This document shows, one piece after another, positions 3,244-9,500 of a stretch of DNA of 11,387 bases. The stretch spans positions 1 through 11,387 of the forward strand of contig JAPHUJ010000336.1 of NCBI GenBank assembly GCA_026193735.1, in the 5' to 3' direction. Origin of the DNA: Sulfurovum sp. GTDB lineage: Bacteria; Campylobacterota; Campylobacteria; Campylobacterales; Sulfurovaceae. Positions within the stretch are counted from its first letter, which is position 1, and each line of letters opens with the position of its first letter. The translations under genes were made by a program, and so were the position numbers. The notes beneath the pieces were generated by a model, which was given only the letters and a program-made list of their open reading frames with translations, made no database searches and was not told the DNA's origin.

Positions 3244-4425
3244 ATGCTAAACTTACAAAAAATTACTCCTTTAGACACAGACTATTTGGAGTCACTTGGT
3301 TTTGTCTGGCATACTGACAATGATGAGACTGCATATATCTCTGATGAACTTCTTATCATCAGTGAAGAAGAAGCTGAATCCTATTATGAAGCCACTAATG
3401 CACTTTATGACATGTATGTAGAGGCAGCAGAATATGTTGTAGAAAATAATCTCTTCCATGAAATAGGTATACCTTTTAACCTTGTAGAAGTGATCAAAGA
3501 GTCATGGGAAAACGATGTACACTGGCATCTTTATGGTCGATTTGACTTAGCAGGCGGACTGGATGGGAAACCTATCAAACTTTTAGAATTTAATGCAGAT
3601 ACACCTACTGCACTTTTTGAAACTGCTATTGTACAATGGGCTATGCTTAAGCAAAATAACCTTGAAGAAGAGAAACAATTTAATGGACTTTACGAAGCAC
3701 TTGTGGACAACTTTAAGCGTCTGGTAACACTAGAAGAAGATGTCTCTACTTTTGAAGAACGTTATGATGGGTGGAACTTACTGTTTACATCTGTCAAAGG
3801 AAACTCTGAAGAAGAAAATACAGTGAGACTACTTCAACATATTGCTACAGAAGCAGGCTTTGAAACAGAGTTTGCCTACATAGATGACATAGAGTTTTCA
3901 GCAGAGGATGGTATTTTTTATCAAGATAAAAACTATGAACTTTGGTTTAAACTGATCCCTTGGGAAGATATAGCACTGGAAGAGTCAGACTTGGCAATGC
4001 TTCTTACAAATATTATCAAAAACCAAAAAGCTATCATCTTTAATCCAGCCTATACTCTACTTTTTCAAAGTAAAGGCTTGCTTAAGATCCTATGGGATCT
4101 ATATCCCAATCATCCTCTTCTACTCAAAAGTTCTTTTAAGCCCTTAAAAGGGCAGAAACAAGTCAAAAAACCTGTCTTCGGTCGAGAAGGTAGAAGTGTC
4201 AGTATTTTGGATGAAGAAGCAAATGATGTAGAAAGTGTAGAGGGTGACTATGATAACTATAAAATGGTCTACCAAGCCTATACAGAGCTAGCAAAAGATA
4301 CACGAGGGCAATGCTATCAGGCAGGCGTATTCTATGCTTATGAAGCTTGCGGACTTGGATTCAGAAAAGGCGGGAAGATCTTGGACAATATGTCTAAATT
4401 CGTTGGGCACTACGTCAAACTTTAA
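3244..4425 (+). CDS. Glutathionylspermidine synthase-family ATP-grasp ligase
   Basis: A 393-residue protein matching the synthetase half of GspS-type enzymes (ATP-grasp, Pfam GSP_synth), without the N-terminal CHAP amidase domain of E. coli GspS. It therefore resembles the stand-alone E. coli paralogues YgiC and YjfC. Visible motifs are YGRFDL (97-102) and LLEFNADTPT (113-122), which hold the Arg, Glu, Asn and Asp ligands expected for ATP, metal and substrate; KKPVFGREGRSV (308-319), the ATP-grasp Lys and Arg-Glu-Gly loop; and the C-terminal LDNMSKFVGHYVK (380-392). The family forms an amide bond using ATP. The real substrates of stand-alone members are uncertain, so glutathionylspermidine should not be assumed. 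It starts 3 bases after the lipoprotein stop. No terminator is evident after its own stop, but a second, diverged copy of its last 13 codons lies at 8606-8647. Confidence 0.88.
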   Translation: MLNLQKITPLDTDYLESLGFVWHTDNDETAYISDELLIISEEEAESYYEATNALYDMYVEAAEYVVENNLFHEIGIPFNLVEVIKESWENDVHWHLYGRFDLAGGLDGKPIKLLEFNADTPTALFETAIVQWAMLKQNNLEEEKQFNGLYEALVDNFKRLVTLEEDVSTFEERYDGWNLLFTSVKGNSEEENTVRLLQHIATEAGFETEFAYIDDIEFSAEDGIFYQDKNYELWFKLIPWEDIALEESDLAMLLTNIIKNQKAIIFNPAYTLLFQSKGLLKILWDLYPNHPLLLKSSFKPLKGQKQVKKPVFGREGRSVSILDEEANDVESVEGDYDNYKMVYQAYTELAKDTRGQCYQAGVFYAYEACGLGFRKGGKILDNMSKFVGHYVKL

Positions 4426-4543
4426 CACCCTGTACAATATCTTACATACGGGGCTACTTCAACATTTTATATGATGCAAGAACTGAGTTTTTTTCATACA
4501 AATAATTTTATAACAAATTCGTTTTATATCTTTCCATTATTGA

Positions 4544-4551
4544 TGTATAAT
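4544..4551 (+). promoter_or_regulatory. Candidate promoter upstream of the aminotransferase
   Basis: A perfect TATAAT (4546-4551) preceded directly by TG, with T-rich blocks at roughly helical spacing upstream (ATTTTA near 4505, GTTTTA near 4521, TCTTTCC near 4529). This is the housekeeping promoter style of Campylobacterota. It lies in the 234-base spacer between the ligase stop and the likely aminotransferase start, so the cassette could be transcribed independently of the ligase operon. Confidence 0.5.
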
Positions 4552-4579
4552 ACAAAAAAGATGCTAGAAAAATAGAAAC

Positions 4580-4588
4580 TGGTATAAT
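4580..4588 (+). promoter_or_regulatory. Candidate extended -10 promoter, aminotransferase-proximal
   Basis: TGGTATAAT is an exact match to the extended -10 consensus TGnTATAAT. It is 72 bases before the likely TTG start at 4660, giving a leader of about 65 bases. No convincing -35 box is seen. It is 34 bases downstream of the other TATAAT, so tandem promoters are possible. Confidence 0.55.
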
Positions 4589-4659
4589 GATATTCTCAAG
4601 CTGATGGAAAACTAGGTCGATCCGTGATTAAAAATACTGTATAGGAAGTGGTACCAACA

Positions 4660-5784
4660 TTGAAAACGATACATGTAACTGAGACATATTTACCTGATAT
4701 ACAAAAATATCAACAGTATGTTGAAAGAATTTTTGAAACTAAAATTGTAACAAATAATGGTGTGCTCGTATGTGAACTTCAAGAGAGACTTGAAAAGTAT
4801 TTAGGCGTTAAGCATGTACTAGTGGTCTCTAATGGAACAGCGGCTTTGCAGATTGCGTACAAACTTTTGGATTTGAAAGGTGAAGTGATTACGACACCCT
4901 TTAGTTTTGTGGCAACAACAAGTTCTCTTGTATGGGAAGGTCTTAAACCAATTTTTGCAGATATTGATCCTCTTAGTTTCAATATGGATGCAAAGAACAT
5001 AGAGAAATTAATCACTGAAAACACATCTGCCATTGTACCTGTACATGTATTTGGCAATGCCTGTGAAGTTGAAACGATTGAAGAGATAGCAAATAGGCAT
5101 CAGCTTAAAGTGATCTATGATGCAGCCCATGCCTTTAATGTCAACTATAAAGGGAAAAGTGTATTAAAATATGGAGATCTGTCCATCTTGAGTTTTCACG
5201 CAACAAAACTATTTCATACGATAGAGGGTGGTGCACTCATTATAGATGATGATGAACAGTATTTACAAGCCAAGAAAATGATCAATTTTGGTATTGATGC
5301 AGACGCATATGGTGGGAGCATTGAAGCACTGGGTATCAATGCCAAGATGAATGAGTTTCAAGCAGCAATGGGTTTGTGTATTCTTGATGATATTGATACG
5401 ATTGAAAAAGAACGCAAACTAGTATATGAATATTATAAAGAAAACCTACAGGATCATCTACAGTTACAGAAATATAATTCAAATGCTGAGATGAATTACA
5501 GTTATTTCCCGGTTCTTTTTGATTCCGAAGAGTCATTGCTGAAAGTAGCCAGTCAATTGAATGTTGAAAACATCTTTCCACGACGATATTTTTATCCCTC
5601 CCTTGATCTTTTACCTTATCTTGAAAAGTCCAAAACGCAGCCTGTTTCAGATGATATTTCTAAACGGGTTTTATGTTTACCGTTATACTATGGATTAGAA
5701 CAAAAGATACAGAAAAAAATTGTAGATATTATTTTAAATACTCTCAAGGAGCTACACCCAAGTAAAAAAGTTCTTGATAAGTGA
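4660..5784 (+). CDS. DegT/DnrJ/EryC1/StrS-family sugar aminotransferase (VioA-like)
   Basis: A PLP-dependent nucleotide-sugar aminotransferase of about 374 residues. Counting from the TTG, the visible signs are VTNNGVLVCELQERLEKYLG near the N terminus, SNGTAAL (57-63, PLP phosphate contact), TTPFSFVAT (78-86), YDAAHAF (153-159, with the Asp that pairs with the PLP ring nitrogen) and SFHATKLFHTIEGG (178-191), whose Lys183 should form the Schiff base. The overall pattern is close to VioA-type dTDP-4-amino-4,6-dideoxyglucose transaminases from memory, so a 4-keto-6-deoxy nucleotide sugar is the likely substrate; the exact sugar is inferred. TTG at 4660 is preferred because AGGAAG (4643-4648) lies 11 bases upstream and the protein then starts MKTIHVTETYLPD like its relatives. 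GTG at 4648 overlaps that ribosome site. It heads the four-gene cassette. Confidence 0.9.
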   Translation: MKTIHVTETYLPDIQKYQQYVERIFETKIVTNNGVLVCELQERLEKYLGVKHVLVVSNGTAALQIAYKLLDLKGEVITTPFSFVATTSSLVWEGLKPIFADIDPLSFNMDAKNIEKLITENTSAIVPVHVFGNACEVETIEEIANRHQLKVIYDAAHAFNVNYKGKSVLKYGDLSILSFHATKLFHTIEGGALIIDDDEQYLQAKKMINFGIDADAYGGSIEALGINAKMNEFQAAMGLCILDDIDTIEKERKLVYEYYKENLQDHLQLQKYNSNAEMNYSYFPVLFDSEESLLKVASQLNVENIFPRRYFYPSLDLLPYLEKSKTQPVSDDISKRVLCLPLYYGLEQKIQKKIVDIILNTLKELHPSKKVLDK

Positions 5785-5794
5785 TCTTACTGCC

Positions 5795-5827
5795 AAGTAT
5801 TACTCTCAAAAGCATTAGTAAATACTT
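5795..5827 (+). repeat. Inverted repeat between aminotransferase and glycosyltransferase
   Basis: AAGTATT (5795-5801) pairs with AATACTT (5821-5827), and an inner ACT/AGT extends the stem past a single bulged A. No T run follows, so it is not a standard terminator. It could be an RNA-processing or stability element, or chance in AT-rich DNA. Confidence 0.3.
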
Positions 5828-5859
5828 ACAAGAATAAAAAATGAACTCAAAGTATAGCA

Positions 5860-6891
5860 ATGATAGAAAAAAATGAAGCTCAAATTATTAAGAACTGGGC
5901 ATATTTTGAACCTCCTTTATTAACTGTTGTGTCTATTACATATAACCATGAAAAATATATTTCAGATGCTTTGGATGGTATGTTAATGCAAAAAACTGAT
6001 TTTCCATTTGAGATTATTGTTCATGATGATTGTTCAACAGACAGCACAGCAACTATATTAAAAGACTATGCTAAAAAATATCCAACTATAATAAAATTGA
6101 TCTTACAAAAAGAGAACCAATATTCTAAAGGTATAAAACCAATGACACTGGCTTTCGACAAGGCTCTTGGAAACTATCTTGCTATAAGCGATGGGGATGA
6201 TTACTGGATAGATCCCAATAAGTTACAGATACAACTTGATGAGATGCGTAAAGTTGAAAATTGTCAAATGTGTTTTCACTCGGCTATTGATATATATGAG
6301 GATAATAGCAGAAAAAATAAAATCACTACAAAACAGGCAAATGGCAATAAATTATTTACCACAAGTGAAATTATTAAAGGAGGTGGAGGCTTTTGTCCAA
6401 CAGCATCTTTGATGTTTAAAAAGGAAGTTGTAGAGAATTTACCACAATGGTATAAAAAGGCACCTTTCGGAGATTATTTTTTACAGGTTTTTGGATCATT
6501 AAAGGGTGGTGCCCTATATATAGACAGGCCTATGTCTGTATATAGAAAAAACACTCTAGGTTCATGGTCCAGAACAATGCAAGATATAAACATGAGAGAA
6601 AAAATGTTTGAAAAACTGATGGTATCCTTAGATGACATGGATAACTCTCTTAATAAACAATTTTATTCTGAAATAATGAAAATAAAATCAGATCAGTATC
6701 TTGATTGGTCACTCGTTTATTTAGAAAATAATTATTTTGTAAAATTCGATCAGACAATTAATAAAAGTTACAATTTAGCAGAGAAAAAATCAAAAAAACT
6801 GTTATTAAGTTTTTATTTGAGAAAGTTTCCTCTACTTTTACAGAGTATCAGAAAACTAATTTTGAGAATGAAGGCAGCTACAGCTGGTTAG
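5860..6891 (+). CDS. Family 2 glycosyltransferase
   Basis: A 343-residue GT-A-fold glycosyltransferase. The N-terminal core is PLLTVVSITYNHEKYISDAL (residues 19-38), then EIIVHDDCSTDST (51-63, nucleotide-binding Asp residues) and ISDGDDYWIDPNKL (109-122), which holds the DGDD metal-binding acidic motif. The C terminus (about 295-343) is Lys/Arg/Leu-rich and could associate with the membrane, though no clear transmembrane span is seen. It probably transfers the amino sugar made by its neighbours onto a glycan or protein; this rests on context. The ATG at 5860 has only a weak ribosome site, and no better start is visible. The gene is more AT-rich than its neighbours: two 60-base stretches counted by hand gave 27-30% GC, against about 42% in one stretch of the BKACE gene. 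The 75-base gap to the aminotransferase suggests co-transcription. Confidence 0.88.
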   Translation: MIEKNEAQIIKNWAYFEPPLLTVVSITYNHEKYISDALDGMLMQKTDFPFEIIVHDDCSTDSTATILKDYAKKYPTIIKLILQKENQYSKGIKPMTLAFDKALGNYLAISDGDDYWIDPNKLQIQLDEMRKVENCQMCFHSAIDIYEDNSRKNKITTKQANGNKLFTTSEIIKGGGGFCPTASLMFKKEVVENLPQWYKKAPFGDYFLQVFGSLKGGALYIDRPMSVYRKNTLGSWSRTMQDINMREKMFEKLMVSLDDMDNSLNKQFYSEIMKIKSDQYLDWSLVYLENNYFVKFDQTINKSYNLAEKKSKKLLLSFYLRKFPLLLQSIRKLILRMKAATAG

Positions 6892-6980
6892 ATAGTTTGA
6901 GATTGAATACAAATCAATTTTTAGTCAATTTTAACCGGAAACACAACACCTGAATTATTACTATCATCCATATTTTAAGG

Positions 6981-7009
6981 TGATTATAGAATAGAATCAT
7001 TTATAATCA
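6981..7009 (+). promoter_or_regulatory. Inverted repeat overlapping a TATAAT box before the acyltransferase
   Basis: TGATTATA (6981-6988) and TATAATCA (7002-7009) are perfect inverted repeats separated by 13 bases, and the right arm contains a perfect TATAAT (7002-7007). It sits 30 bases before the acyltransferase start, inside a 147-base spacer. It may be a promoter with an operator-like site, but the local AT content makes chance possible and no -35 box is evident. Confidence 0.35.
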
Positions 7010-7038
7010 TATAATAACAGTAAATGGAGAAGTTTAAG

Positions 7039-7665
7039 ATGAAGTTATACATACTTGGTTCAAGTTTATATGCTGAAGAGATCGCAGATTATATTATAAG
7101 CTCTGGAACACATCACTTAAGTGGGTTTATTGAGGGTCAAGACCAAGAAAAATGTTCTCGTGAGCTCTTGGAACGTCCGATATTGTGGATCGATGATATT
7201 TCAGAACTTGATGAAAACTGTAGAGGTATATGTGCAGTGGGAAGTCCAAAGCGTAAAAAATTTATTGAGCAGGCACAATCTAAGGGATTAAAATTTACCA
7301 CGTTTGCACACCCTGGTGCCTTTATATCTTCTTCTGCAACTTTAGGTACAGGTTCAATAGTAGGCGCAGGTAGTATCATTGCTGTCAAAACGTCCATTGG
7401 TGCACATACCATCATAAACCGTGGCTGTTTGATAGGACATCATGTCACCATCGGAGATTATGTAACTATATCCCCAGGTGCCAATATTGCGGGGAAGACA
7501 GTGATCGGTGATGGATCATATATCGCCATGGGTGCGATCATACTTGATGGTATCACGATAGGAAAAAATGTGGTTGTTGGTGCAGGTGCCGTTGTCACAA
7601 AAGATGTACCTGATAACGTTCAAGTGGTTGGGTTACCGGCACGTATTGTCAAAGAGTTCACATAA
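7039..7665 (+). CDS. NeuD/PglD-family sugar N- or O-acyltransferase
   Basis: A 208-residue protein with two parts. An N-terminal Rossmann-like PglD domain begins MKLYILGSSLYAEEIADYI (1-19) and carries a central GICAVGSPKRKKF (63-75). A left-handed beta-helix of hexapeptide repeats follows (about 95-195), with strings such as TLGTGSIVGAGSII and VIGDGSYIAMGAII. The segment CLIGHHVTIGDYVTISPG (130-147) carries the family's catalytic histidine (His134 or His135). Relatives transfer acetyl or other acyl groups from acyl-CoA to amino sugars (PglD, VioB-like) or hydroxyls (NeuD). Next to a VioA-like aminotransferase, N-acylation of a 4-amino-4,6-dideoxy sugar is the likely reaction. ATG 7039 is chosen because GGAGA (7026-7030) lies 8 bases upstream; the earlier ATG at 7024 overlaps that ribosome site. 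Confidence 0.9.
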   Translation: MKLYILGSSLYAEEIADYIISSGTHHLSGFIEGQDQEKCSRELLERPILWIDDISELDENCRGICAVGSPKRKKFIEQAQSKGLKFTTFAHPGAFISSSATLGTGSIVGAGSIIAVKTSIGAHTIINRGCLIGHHVTIGDYVTISPGANIAGKTVIGDGSYIAMGAIILDGITIGKNVVVGAGAVVTKDVPDNVQVVGLPARIVKEFT

Positions 7666-7699
7666 TCAATCAAGTCAATATATATGAAGGATAACAATT

Positions 7700-8572
7700 A
7701 TGAGAAATGAAATGATTATTAATTTTACACCCACAGGTATGATACCGACCAAAGAGATGACACCTCATGTTCCCATATCTGTCTCAGAGATCATTGAAGA
7801 TGTACATAGAGCCACTGAAATTGGAATCACTATGGTACACCTTCATGCACGCGATGAAATCACAGGAAAACCAACGTATAAAGCAGAGGTCTATGGTGAT
7901 ATCATTGCCGGTATTCGCTCTTTTGCTCCAGATCTAATTATTGGAGTTTCATTGAGCGGAAGAGGCATTAAAGAGTTTGCCCATCGCGCTGAACCACTTC
8001 AGCTTGAAGGAGATTTGAAACCAGATATGGGTAGCTTAACACTCAGTTCGTTGAATTTCAATCGTATAGCCAGCATCAATGAACCGGATATGATCCAGAA
8101 ATTGGCAAATGAGATGAAAGTAAAAGGAATTTTACCTGAACTGGAAGTTTTTGATGTTGGGATGGTCAATTATGCCAAATATCTTATAAAGAAAGGATTG
8201 TTACAAGAACCACACTATTTTAATCTTTTGTTTGGGAATGCTGCATGTGTTCAGCCGGATCTGCTACATACAGGTGTAGTGACACGAGATCTTCCTGAAA
8301 ACTCTTACTGTAGCTTTGCAGGAATAGGTGATGCGCAGCTTATGATGAACTCTCTGGGCATAGCTGCCGGAGTAGGAGTGAGAGTTGGATTGGAAGATAC
8401 CATATGGTATGATCAGGCACGAACCAGACTTGCTACAAACAGTGATCTTTTACAACGCATTCACACAATGGCCGAAGCGAATGAACGTAATATGATGACA
8501 CCAAAAAGTTTAAGGAAACGCCTAAACCTTCATGAAGGCTTTGGAAAATATGGGTATAAAGAGAGGTTTTAG
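7700..8572 (+). CDS. BKACE-family (DUF849) beta-keto acid cleavage enzyme
   Basis: A 290-residue TIM-barrel protein of the 3-keto-5-aminohexanoate cleavage (Kce)/BKACE family. Family members use a metal ion and acetyl-CoA to cleave a beta-keto acid, releasing acetoacetate and a new acyl-CoA. Visible motifs are NFTPTGMIPTKEMTPHVP (8-25), MVHLHARD (45-52) with metal ligands His47 and His49, GVSLSGRG (82-89), LPELEVFD (145-152) and GVRVGLEDTIWYD (226-238) with Arg228, the metal-binding Glu232 and Asp233. All key residues seem present, so it should be active. AAGGA (7687-7691) precedes the ATG by 8 bases. The gene follows the acyltransferase by 34 bases. BKACE enzymes are usually tied to amino-acid breakdown, so its place in a sugar cassette suggests it supplies an acyl-CoA for sugar acylation (inference). 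The substrate is not known. Confidence 0.9.
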   Translation: MRNEMIINFTPTGMIPTKEMTPHVPISVSEIIEDVHRATEIGITMVHLHARDEITGKPTYKAEVYGDIIAGIRSFAPDLIIGVSLSGRGIKEFAHRAEPLQLEGDLKPDMGSLTLSSLNFNRIASINEPDMIQKLANEMKVKGILPELEVFDVGMVNYAKYLIKKGLLQEPHYFNLLFGNAACVQPDLLHTGVVTRDLPENSYCSFAGIGDAQLMMNSLGIAAGVGVRVGLEDTIWYDQARTRLATNSDLLQRIHTMAEANERNMMTPKSLRKRLNLHEGFGKYGYKERF

Positions 8573-8605
8573 CATTGAATATCTTACTAAATATCGTCTC
8601 TTTTT

Positions 8606-8647
8606 TTAGATAATATGTCTAAATTTGTGGGGCATCTTGTGAAGTAG
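8606..8647 (+). pseudogene. Remnant 3' end of a glutathionylspermidine synthase-family gene
   Basis: Read on the + strand, TTA at 8606 to TAG at 8647 encodes LDNMSKFVGHLVK-stop. This matches residues 380-392 of the intact ligase (LDNMSKFVGHYVK, bases 4381-4419) at 12 of 13 positions. At DNA level 29 of 39 bases agree, including a 14-base identical core (4387-4400 and 8612-8625). Eight codons differ and seven of these changes are synonymous; only Tyr-to-Leu alters the protein. That pattern is expected for a once functional, diverged allele rather than a fresh duplication or chance. Similarity stops sharply at 8606, where a T run (8601-8607) follows unrelated sequence. The bases from 8619 on also encode the end of apaH on the other strand. 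Confidence 0.75.
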
Positions 8648-9500
8648 GTCTTTCTACTTCACTTTCATCTTTTTTTGTCAATTCTTTTTTTGCACAATCT
8701 ATAGAAACTATTTCAATTTCATCACTGTCAATACGCGCAGCGGTAAGTTGACCACCCCATAAACATCCGGTATCTAAAGCCAACACATGTTCATCTTCGT
8801 AAAGTCCTAATGTTGACCAATGACCAAAAATAATACGCAGATCAATATCTTTACGATCTTTGCACTCAAACCAAGGTTTCAATCCTTTTTTTCTTAGTTC
8901 ATCCGTAGGTGCACCTTTTTGGTCAAAATCAAGCCTATGATCACCATAACAAAAACGCATACGTGTAAACGCACTCACAATATAACGGTCAATATCTATA
9001 AGGCTTGCCTCTCTGTTAAAACGATTACTCCCTTTACGAAGCATCTGTTCCAACCAAATTCCAGCATGATCGCTTTGTAATTTCTCTTCCACGCCTTTAG
9101 CATACATCATAGCCATGCCCAAATCAAACTCAGGTGAGATACCGGCGTGAGCCATACAAAATCCAAGTTGATAATCCACATGTAAAAACTTTTGTCCTCT
9201 AAGCCAATCTATGAGCTTTTTAGCTTCCGGTGATTTAAGTATAGGATCAATAGTCGGATTGGATTTTTTGATCCCATAGTAAGCCGCTATTAAGGTAATG
9301 TCATGATTTCCCAAAACGATCTCAACATTTTCTTTTATACTATATAGATATTCCAATGTCTCAAGTGAACCTTCCCCCCTATTTACTAAATCTCCAGCTA
9401 TCCAAAGCTTGTCTTGCTTTACATCAAAGTCTATCTTTTCCAGTAGCTCTCTAAAGGAATTGTAGCATCCTTGTATATCACCTATAGCCCAAACTGCCAT
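8619..9500 (-). CDS. apaH: Symmetrical bis(5'-nucleosyl)-tetraphosphatase (ApaH)
   Basis: A 293-residue calcineurin-like metallophosphoesterase. It hydrolyses diadenosine tetraphosphate to two ADP and limits this stress-linked nucleotide. The two-metal site is visible in order: GDIQGC (7-12), GDLVNRGEGS (36-45), GNHD (64-67), HAGISP (118-123) and GHWS (226-229), followed by ALDTGCLWGGQLTA (241-254) typical of ApaH. It is about a dozen residues longer than the E. coli enzyme as remembered. The hydrophilic tail after about residue 272 is unlike the folded domain, and the last nine residues are antisense to the ligase-gene remnant, so the tail may be a by-product of convergent overlap. The ATG shares one base with the upstream stop (TAATG), implying translational coupling. 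No promoter lies directly upstream; it belongs to the - strand run that includes prmC. Confidence 0.93.
   Translation of the reverse strand: MAVWAIGDIQGCYNSFRELLEKIDFDVKQDKLWIAGDLVNRGEGSLETLEYLYSIKENVEIVLGNHDITLIAAYYGIKKSNPTIDPILKSPEAKKLIDWLRGQKFLHVDYQLGFCMAHAGISPEFDLGMAMMYAKGVEEKLQSDHAGIWLEQMLRKGSNRFNREASLIDIDRYIVSAFTRMRFCYGDHRLDFDQKGAPTDELRKKGLKPWFECKDRKDIDLRIIFGHWSTLGLYEDEHVLALDTGCLWGGQLTAARIDSDEIEIVSIDCAKKELTKKDESEVERPTSQDAPQI
8639..8676 (+). terminator. Rho-independent terminator at the ligase-gene remnant
   Basis: GTGAAGTAG (8639-8647) and CTACTTCAC (8654-8662) form a perfect 9-pair stem with a 6-base loop, followed by TTTCATC and seven Ts (8670-8676). The left arm includes the remnant's stop codon, so this was probably the original terminator of the ligase operon. 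It now ends + strand transcription through the cassette. The T run lies only on the + side, and the hairpin falls within the last codons of apaH on the opposite strand. Confidence 0.75.

Follow-up and report, generated by a model that had tools for sequence, protein, structure and literature searches.

How did a second copy of the 3′ end of an intact gene come to lie behind a four-gene cassette, partly across the end of a gene on the opposite strand? The question was raised by a Sulfurovum sp. window, the whole stretch of 11,387 nucleotides analysed here, which is the entire contig G000:C117 of an assembly with 357 contigs and 78% completeness. One strand of the window carries, in this order, ftsA, ftsZ, a lipoprotein-like gene, a glutathionylspermidine-synthase-like preATP-grasp ligase gene (LIG; 3244 to 4425, + strand; PF03738, Pfam 426.4 bits) and the four cassette genes. 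The opposite strand carries apaH (8619 to 9500, − strand; TIGR00668, 253 bits), a mug-like gene, a membrane protein gene and prmC; ftsA, ftsZ, mug and prmC are names that we presume from the translations. LIG was matched in 70 of the 78 genus genomes, and in the window it encodes 393 amino acids with zero internal stops, so the target gene is complete after the insertion. That the window is one whole contig of a metagenome assembly in so many pieces leaves room for a misassembly, which we nevertheless regard as extremely improbable. An erroneous join is hardly expected to produce a native LIG end that is both in frame and flush with apaH, and a comparable LIG copy was found in G041, whose genome is represented by a single contig.

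The second copy, hereafter the relic, lies at 8606 to 8647 on the + strand and encodes LDNMSKFVGHLVK followed by a stop, that is, 13 of the last 14 LIG codons and then the stop codon. The repeat reported in the earlier note was real: compared with 4381 to 4419, 12 of the 13 residues are equal, and seven of the eight differing codons are synonymous. When the LIG C terminus was compared without gaps (BLOSUM62) across 4426 to 9500, the relic scored 62, against 27 to 35 in 12 first-order Markov resamplings. An nhmmer profile of the LIG 3′ ends of the genus found the relic with E = 4.7e-5 in 644 kb downstream of LIG, and its reversed control gave zero matches at E ≤ 1. The present LIG 3′ end (4381 to 4425, + strand) encodes LDNMSKFVGHYVKL and a stop, with an unusual HYVKL tail, the Y of which was seen in none of the other 63 LIG C termini compared at that position.

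The relic does not lie exactly where apaH ends, as had been claimed. Its last 29 bases (8619 to 8647) are antisense to the final apaH codons and stop, and its first 13 (8606 to 8618) lie outside apaH. The short copy could thus be only what the apaH C-terminal coding imposes, an option that the earlier note had named as a refutation, or else a chance match, given that the codons and stop of apaH occupy 29 of its 42 bases. We consider this very improbable. The LIG-like reading continues 13 bases beyond apaH, the score of 62 is well above the resampled maximum, the relic of another genome (G014) lies entirely outside apaH, and LIG itself has the 29-base overlap at the empty sites described below. 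The coding of apaH can explain the persistence of most of the relic, but would not explain its origin. The left edge of the relic includes an imperfect inverted repeat, TTAGATA-ATA-TGTCTAA (8606 to 8622, + strand), which was rejected as a recombinase site and not counted as evidence, being mostly forced by the codons D-N-M-S. A terminator-like hairpin with a 10-pair stem, four of the pairs G-C, spans 8639 to 8662 (+ strand), now behind the cassette, and may mean that cassette transcription also terminates at the relic; it was the one such hairpin found in the region, against a shuffle mean of 1.9, and thus represents no excess.

The surroundings of LIG were collected as 72 stretches from the 69 other matching genomes, and their genes were mapped by tblastn. 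The overlap of LIG and apaH measures 29 bases in G004, G009, G042, G045 and G065, as it does between the relic and apaH in the window, and 4 bases in G008, G052, G053, G063, G073 and G080. Relatives free of a cassette thus have the two genes converging with either of two overlaps, and five of them present a precise empty site. At the level of gene order, the comparison shows that LIG and apaH were formerly convergent, sharing 29 bases, and that the cassette was inserted later, much as the earlier note had proposed.

The inserted cassette (4426 to 8605, ∼4.2 kb, no strand assigned to it as a unit) has a GC content of 0.349, compared to 0.38 and 0.369 in the flanks, and is missing where LIG and apaH overlap. 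It carries, all on the + strand, genes for a DegT/DnrJ/EryC1/StrS sugar aminotransferase (4648 to 5784; PF01041, 310.7 bits), a family 2 glycosyltransferase (5860 to 6891; PF00535, 74.7 bits), a NeuD/PglB/VioB-family sugar acetyltransferase (7024 to 7665; TIGR03570, 185.9 bits against a cut-off of 160.8) and a BKACE-family (beta-keto acid cleavage) enzyme (7700 to 8572; PF05853, 251.2 bits). The cassette probably functions in surface-sugar synthesis, as judged from these families. That the four genes were inserted was supported by tblastn, which gave zero matches to them among the 72 stretches of the 69 other genomes. BKACE homologues in five of the other 77 genus genomes are 46–49% identical, none being closer there, and relatives at 96–97% were found in a large protein collection that does not give the organism. 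PADLOC gave no match for the four cassette proteins. A 10-base repeat, AATATCTTAC, is present near both ends of the insert (4436 to 4445 and 8578 to 8587), but was equalled by 39 of 2000 shuffles and is therefore weak.

To see which of the two LIG ends is the original one, we compared the 36 bases that start with the N codon. Here the relic agrees with the LIG end of the empty-site genome G042 at 34 of 36 positions (0.94) and has an identity of 0.89 to that of G009, likewise an empty site, but it agrees with the window's own LIG end at only 25 of 36 (0.69). The best 36-nt match of the window's own LIG end elsewhere was 0.75. Since the relic is closer to the G042 and G009 ends than to its own LIG end, it is most simply read as the displaced native LIG 3′ end, which would have stayed with apaH; the protein score and the nhmmer match are in keeping with this. 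An identity of 0.89 was also seen between the relic and the LIG end of G078. The same 36 bases are only suggestive of a foreign origin of the present LIG 3′ end, of which at most the last ∼42 bases would be new, and over this length that end may be foreign or may merely have drifted.

The earlier note had allowed for either a new LIG 3′ end or a whole new gene; the former is thus suggestive, and the latter was not supported by the trees. Both LIG halves, as well as ftsZ, placed the window's genome nearest G003, and apaH placed it nearest G056 and G003 in the same clade, the LIG and ftsZ placements being without strong support. The predicted discordance between the 5′ and 3′ halves of LIG was therefore not observed. 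Whole-gene replacement of LIG thus gained no support: the trees gave no sign of it, and sliding identity, which did not cover the last 42 bases, showed no drop up to the LDNMSKF codons.

Insertion between LIG and apaH is common in the genus. Of the 52 genomes with both genes mapped, 29 had a spacing above 500 nt, compared to 0/63, 3/65, 0/70, 0/49, 0/49 and 3/47 at six neighbouring junctions of the gene block. On a quick tree (FtsZ, LIG and ApaH; 21 of 58 inner branches weak) there were at least 13 changes between empty and insert among the 58 genomes scored, 18 as empty (<100 nt) and 40 as insert. The latter include seven genomes in which apaH was not reached, among them G011, where apaH was found later; G006, G010 and G075 were left unscored. 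Genomes G012, G021, G022, G047, G067, G070, G072, G083 and G085 were dropped for a split or cut LIG; contig pieces of G012 and G083 were kept in some comparisons and left out of the quick tree, and G010 was also left out of the gene trees. Where apaH was reached, inserts measured up to about 8.6 kb, and their content varies widely between lineages. Several inserts look common to sister species and inherited, and the convergent junction may be a place that tolerates insertion; for both reasons the hotspot alone is no proof of site-specific entry. Separately, ftsZ and the lipoprotein-like gene lie 3.7–3.8 kb apart in G009, G011 and G054 (L031, L034 and L154), and the LIG of G021 matches as two pieces (L050:4091-5264), possibly a frameshift.

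Copies of the LIG 3′ end downstream of LIG were found in five genomes, the window's own, G011, G014, G041 and G078, by a protein-level scan (one resampling per gap, maximum 34.1) and by nhmmer with a reversed control. A whole-genome motif search matched 63 of 78 genomes; those with additional copies at the LIG locus were these five of the 78. Away from the LIG locus it gave only one match with three mismatches (G012) and the contig-end LIG pieces of G083, and its reversed-pattern control gave zero. Outside the genus, 44 of the 79 named loci were examined; 43 of them showed no copy behind LIG (the remaining one offered <60 bases, and some of the 44 are named Sulfurovum), and a second motif was found in none of 97 sister-genus genomes, only 22 of which show even one. 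Five more nhmmer matches, with E from 0.096 to 0.69, were taken as chance.

Three genomes had copies with the same left edge. In the window, in G014 and in the first G078 copy the nhmmer alignment starts at model position 91. The second G078 copy is weak (nhmmer E = 0.15, protein-scan score 42.1) and starts at position 87, 4 bases earlier. The base before TTAGA, which would be G at the G^TT crossover of an integron cassette, is T in the window, in G014 and in both G078 copies. The TTA leucine codon is common to the relics and also occurs in 11 of 62 LIG genes. The G014 relic lies wholly outside apaH, and the G078 contig has no apaH. Other edges differ: the G041 copy starts 117 nt further left, the third G078 piece comes from further left and has no edge in common with the window and G014, and the second LIG of G011 starts in the upstream gene. 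In two close relatives of the window's genome, G003 and G062, at best the part of the relic under the apaH tail is retained; G062 scored 30.8, within the shuffle range, and G003 gave no match, so both were accepted only by their position under apaH.

G078 and G011 hold several such pieces. Behind the AbiE cassette of G078 there are three LIG-derived pieces in a row (L176:7145-7907), of which the farther two are more decayed; the nearest, a copy of 75 nt that includes bases past the LIG stop, is 95% identical to LIG, and the farther two are about 80–82% identical. Two complete LIG genes lie 7.5 kb from each other in G011 (L031:13593-15008). The second comes with part of the upstream gene; the two stretches are 88% identical over 1413 nt and show no difference in their first 60 bases. 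G011 also has a third LIG 3′ end, a relic flush with apaH (L270:6299-6327), which lies 6.2 kb after the second LIG. The G078 copy reaching past the stop and the whole-gene second LIG of G011 would both fit a lineage that already had the cassette genes downstream and underwent a segmental tandem duplication at the LIG 3′ end, followed by deletion and without any mobile step at this codon. We judge this improbable: the window's relic is closer to the G042 LIG end than to its own, insert content differs widely among lineages, and the identical edge in three genomes would be left unexplained.

The explanation that we favour, with some confidence, is that the LIG 3′ end behaves as an attachment site for cassettes at the LDNMSKF codons. 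By the comparison with relatives, the four-gene cassette entered inside the last LIG codons, and LIG kept or received a full 3′ end to the left of the insert. To the right, the original LIG 3′ end remained together with its terminator-like hairpin and still codes for the apaH C terminus. As to mechanism, incoming cassettes would join at the LDNMSKF codons and would carry in or restore the LIG 3′ end, much like islands at trmE, dusA or tRNA genes, by a recombinase that acted in trans or has since been lost. Later insertions would enter next to the intact LIG and shift older footprints towards apaH, and the identity gradient in G078 is as such accretion predicts. We also counted in its favour the empty sites, the likeness of the window's relic to the LIG ends of G042 and G009, the frequent inserts and repeated changes between empty and insert, the near-confinement of extra LIG 3′ motifs to the LIG locus, and the edge common to the window, G014 and G078. 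Several observations were counted against an attachment site, besides the searches for a recombinase, a carrier and a dif-like core given below: the differing edges in G041, in the second LIG of G011 and in the third G078 piece; the edge near the apaH stop in the window, G003, G062 and G011, which is also expected from selection on apaH; the likeness, at 0.89, of the window's relic to the LIG end of G078 as well; and the G014 relic, which is less similar to kin than the LIG end of G014 itself is.

The cargo of two other genomes bears on the same point. G014 carries a TOTE/PDC-M16 pair and AbiEi-AbiEii, and G078 carries the same AbiE toxin-antitoxin pair, 92% identical to that of G014 over 1814 bp, with LIG regions that are 75% alike. 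Behind each AbiE pair lies a LIG relic that starts at one and the same LIG codon, and these relics are just 0.64 alike. Because the relics differ this much despite the 92% identity of the cassette, the AbiE cassette probably entered the G014 and G078 lineages twice, separately, at one codon. Four AbiE relatives, 76–86% identical, were found elsewhere. In G090 the pair (L267:2558-4449) is followed after 111 nt by an intact tRNA-Ser(UGA), the first of four clustered tRNA genes, and adjoins MzaB- and Vsr-like genes; it is perhaps another defence insertion at a 3′ end. In G021 the distance is about 120 nt, and what follows is a 32-nt piece of a tRNA-Ser 3′ end (L194:2118-2149), without the full tRNA. 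A gene-end fragment beside an insert is a common footprint of integrative islands. The relatives in G048 and G004 have no tRNA within the fetched stretch. The two of four near a tRNA-Ser end or fragment, at 84% identity, were counted for an attachment site, and the other two against it.

The main rival, which we find possible but less convincing, is a homology-anchored illegitimate insertion with selection for both overlapping genes. Transformed DNA of another strain would pair with LIG on one side and be joined by chance near the LIG end on the other, and only products leaving both overlapping genes readable would survive, so that a piece of LIG is left beside apaH. Such a process would account for the finding of no recombinase at the site, for the very unlike copy lengths in G041 and G011 and for the relics of the window, G003, G062 and G011 lying under apaH coding, and it would suit a junction that simply tolerates inserts. 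It is harder to reconcile with the left edge shared by the window, G014 and G078, given that apaH does not cover the G014 relic and is absent from the G078 contig, and with the entry of the same AbiE cassette at the same codon in two species.

Machinery for site-specific entry was looked for in several ways. A home-made tyrosine recombinase profile, built from the genus's own enzymes, found none in the insert of the window or downstream of LIG (161 LIG loci and the window), in agreement with the earlier note, which had seen no integrase; the sole match near LIG was one gene in L125, 5.4 kb 5′ of LIG. The profile gave 39 matches in recombinase loci as a positive control. Divergent or serine recombinases may escape it, many of the 161 loci were short or represented the same genomes repeatedly, and Pfam covered some of the insert proteins. 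IMG/VR had no carrier with the exact LIG motif, and phage and plasmid records gave only weak matches (E ≥ 2). An integron integrase (TIGR02249) scored above the cut-off in 20 of the 78 genus genomes, including G011, G014 and G078, and the inserts resemble integron cassettes in being small gene modules with toxin-antitoxin cargo. Unlike integron cassettes, they have no integrase at LIG, and inspection of the G078 relic by eye, by the features that we take to define attC, revealed no attC-like end next to it.

Integrative islands at gene 3′ ends are flanked by a short copy of the gene end, as is the insert here. The likeness to integrative elements noticed earlier thus held in that it recurs in other genomes, while their machinery was not found. 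The AbiE type IV toxin-antitoxin pairs of G014 and G078 and the TOTE/PDC-M16 pair of G014 are like the toxin-antitoxin and candidate defence genes that islands carry, unlike the cargo of the window, which looks sugar-modifying. SGI1 at trmE and the dusA islands are reported to integrate at the 3′ end of a conserved protein gene (PMC8409611), and LIG is likewise such a target and is left intact. Compared with the islands described there, the LIG inserts, up to about 8.6 kb where mapped, have no recombinase found in or near them, and the copy in the window doubles as coding sequence of the convergent neighbour apaH. The several footprints in a row in G078 and G011 resemble secondary-site and tandem integration of SGI1 (PMC2297512), but they are decayed, of unequal length and without a remaining recombinase gene. 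LME-1 of Legionella is described as using the host Xer system (PMC9765430); the LIG inserts are similarly joined at a short site, and an element of this kind would not need its own integrase. In contrast to Xer elements, the LIG core lies within a coding region and is dissimilar to the dif site given for Sulfurovum NBC37-1 (PMC2731167). This candidate was rejected, as the 28-mer matched the relic at 15 of 28 positions (reached by 354 of 500 shuffles) and the LIG end at 14 of 28 (366 of 500). By analogy, the LIG site would work in the manner of integrative elements that restore the 3′ end of their target gene, although it would fall outside that class in one defining feature, the recombinase. 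Among the papers listed, no work on this LIG-apaH site was found, as judged by titles and the openings of abstracts, which is not proof of absence.

The locus represents a marked, recurrent acquisition site in one genus, where relics show the old gene end and sister species hold the empty sites, and its cargo includes toxin-antitoxin and candidate defence genes. An overlapping convergent junction can be opened without breaking either gene, via a duplicated overlap. This poses the testable question of what moves cassettes in which a recombinase was not found. A more far-reaching possibility, which we offer as speculative and rather unlikely, is that the genus has a family of small defence and surface-sugar cassettes without a recombinase of their own, which a recombinase acting in trans inserts at a single block of codons in a housekeeping gene that overlaps apaH, each insertion copying the shared overlap so that both genes survive. 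If that were true, the pieces between LIG and apaH would be a readable, ordered record of past acquisitions.
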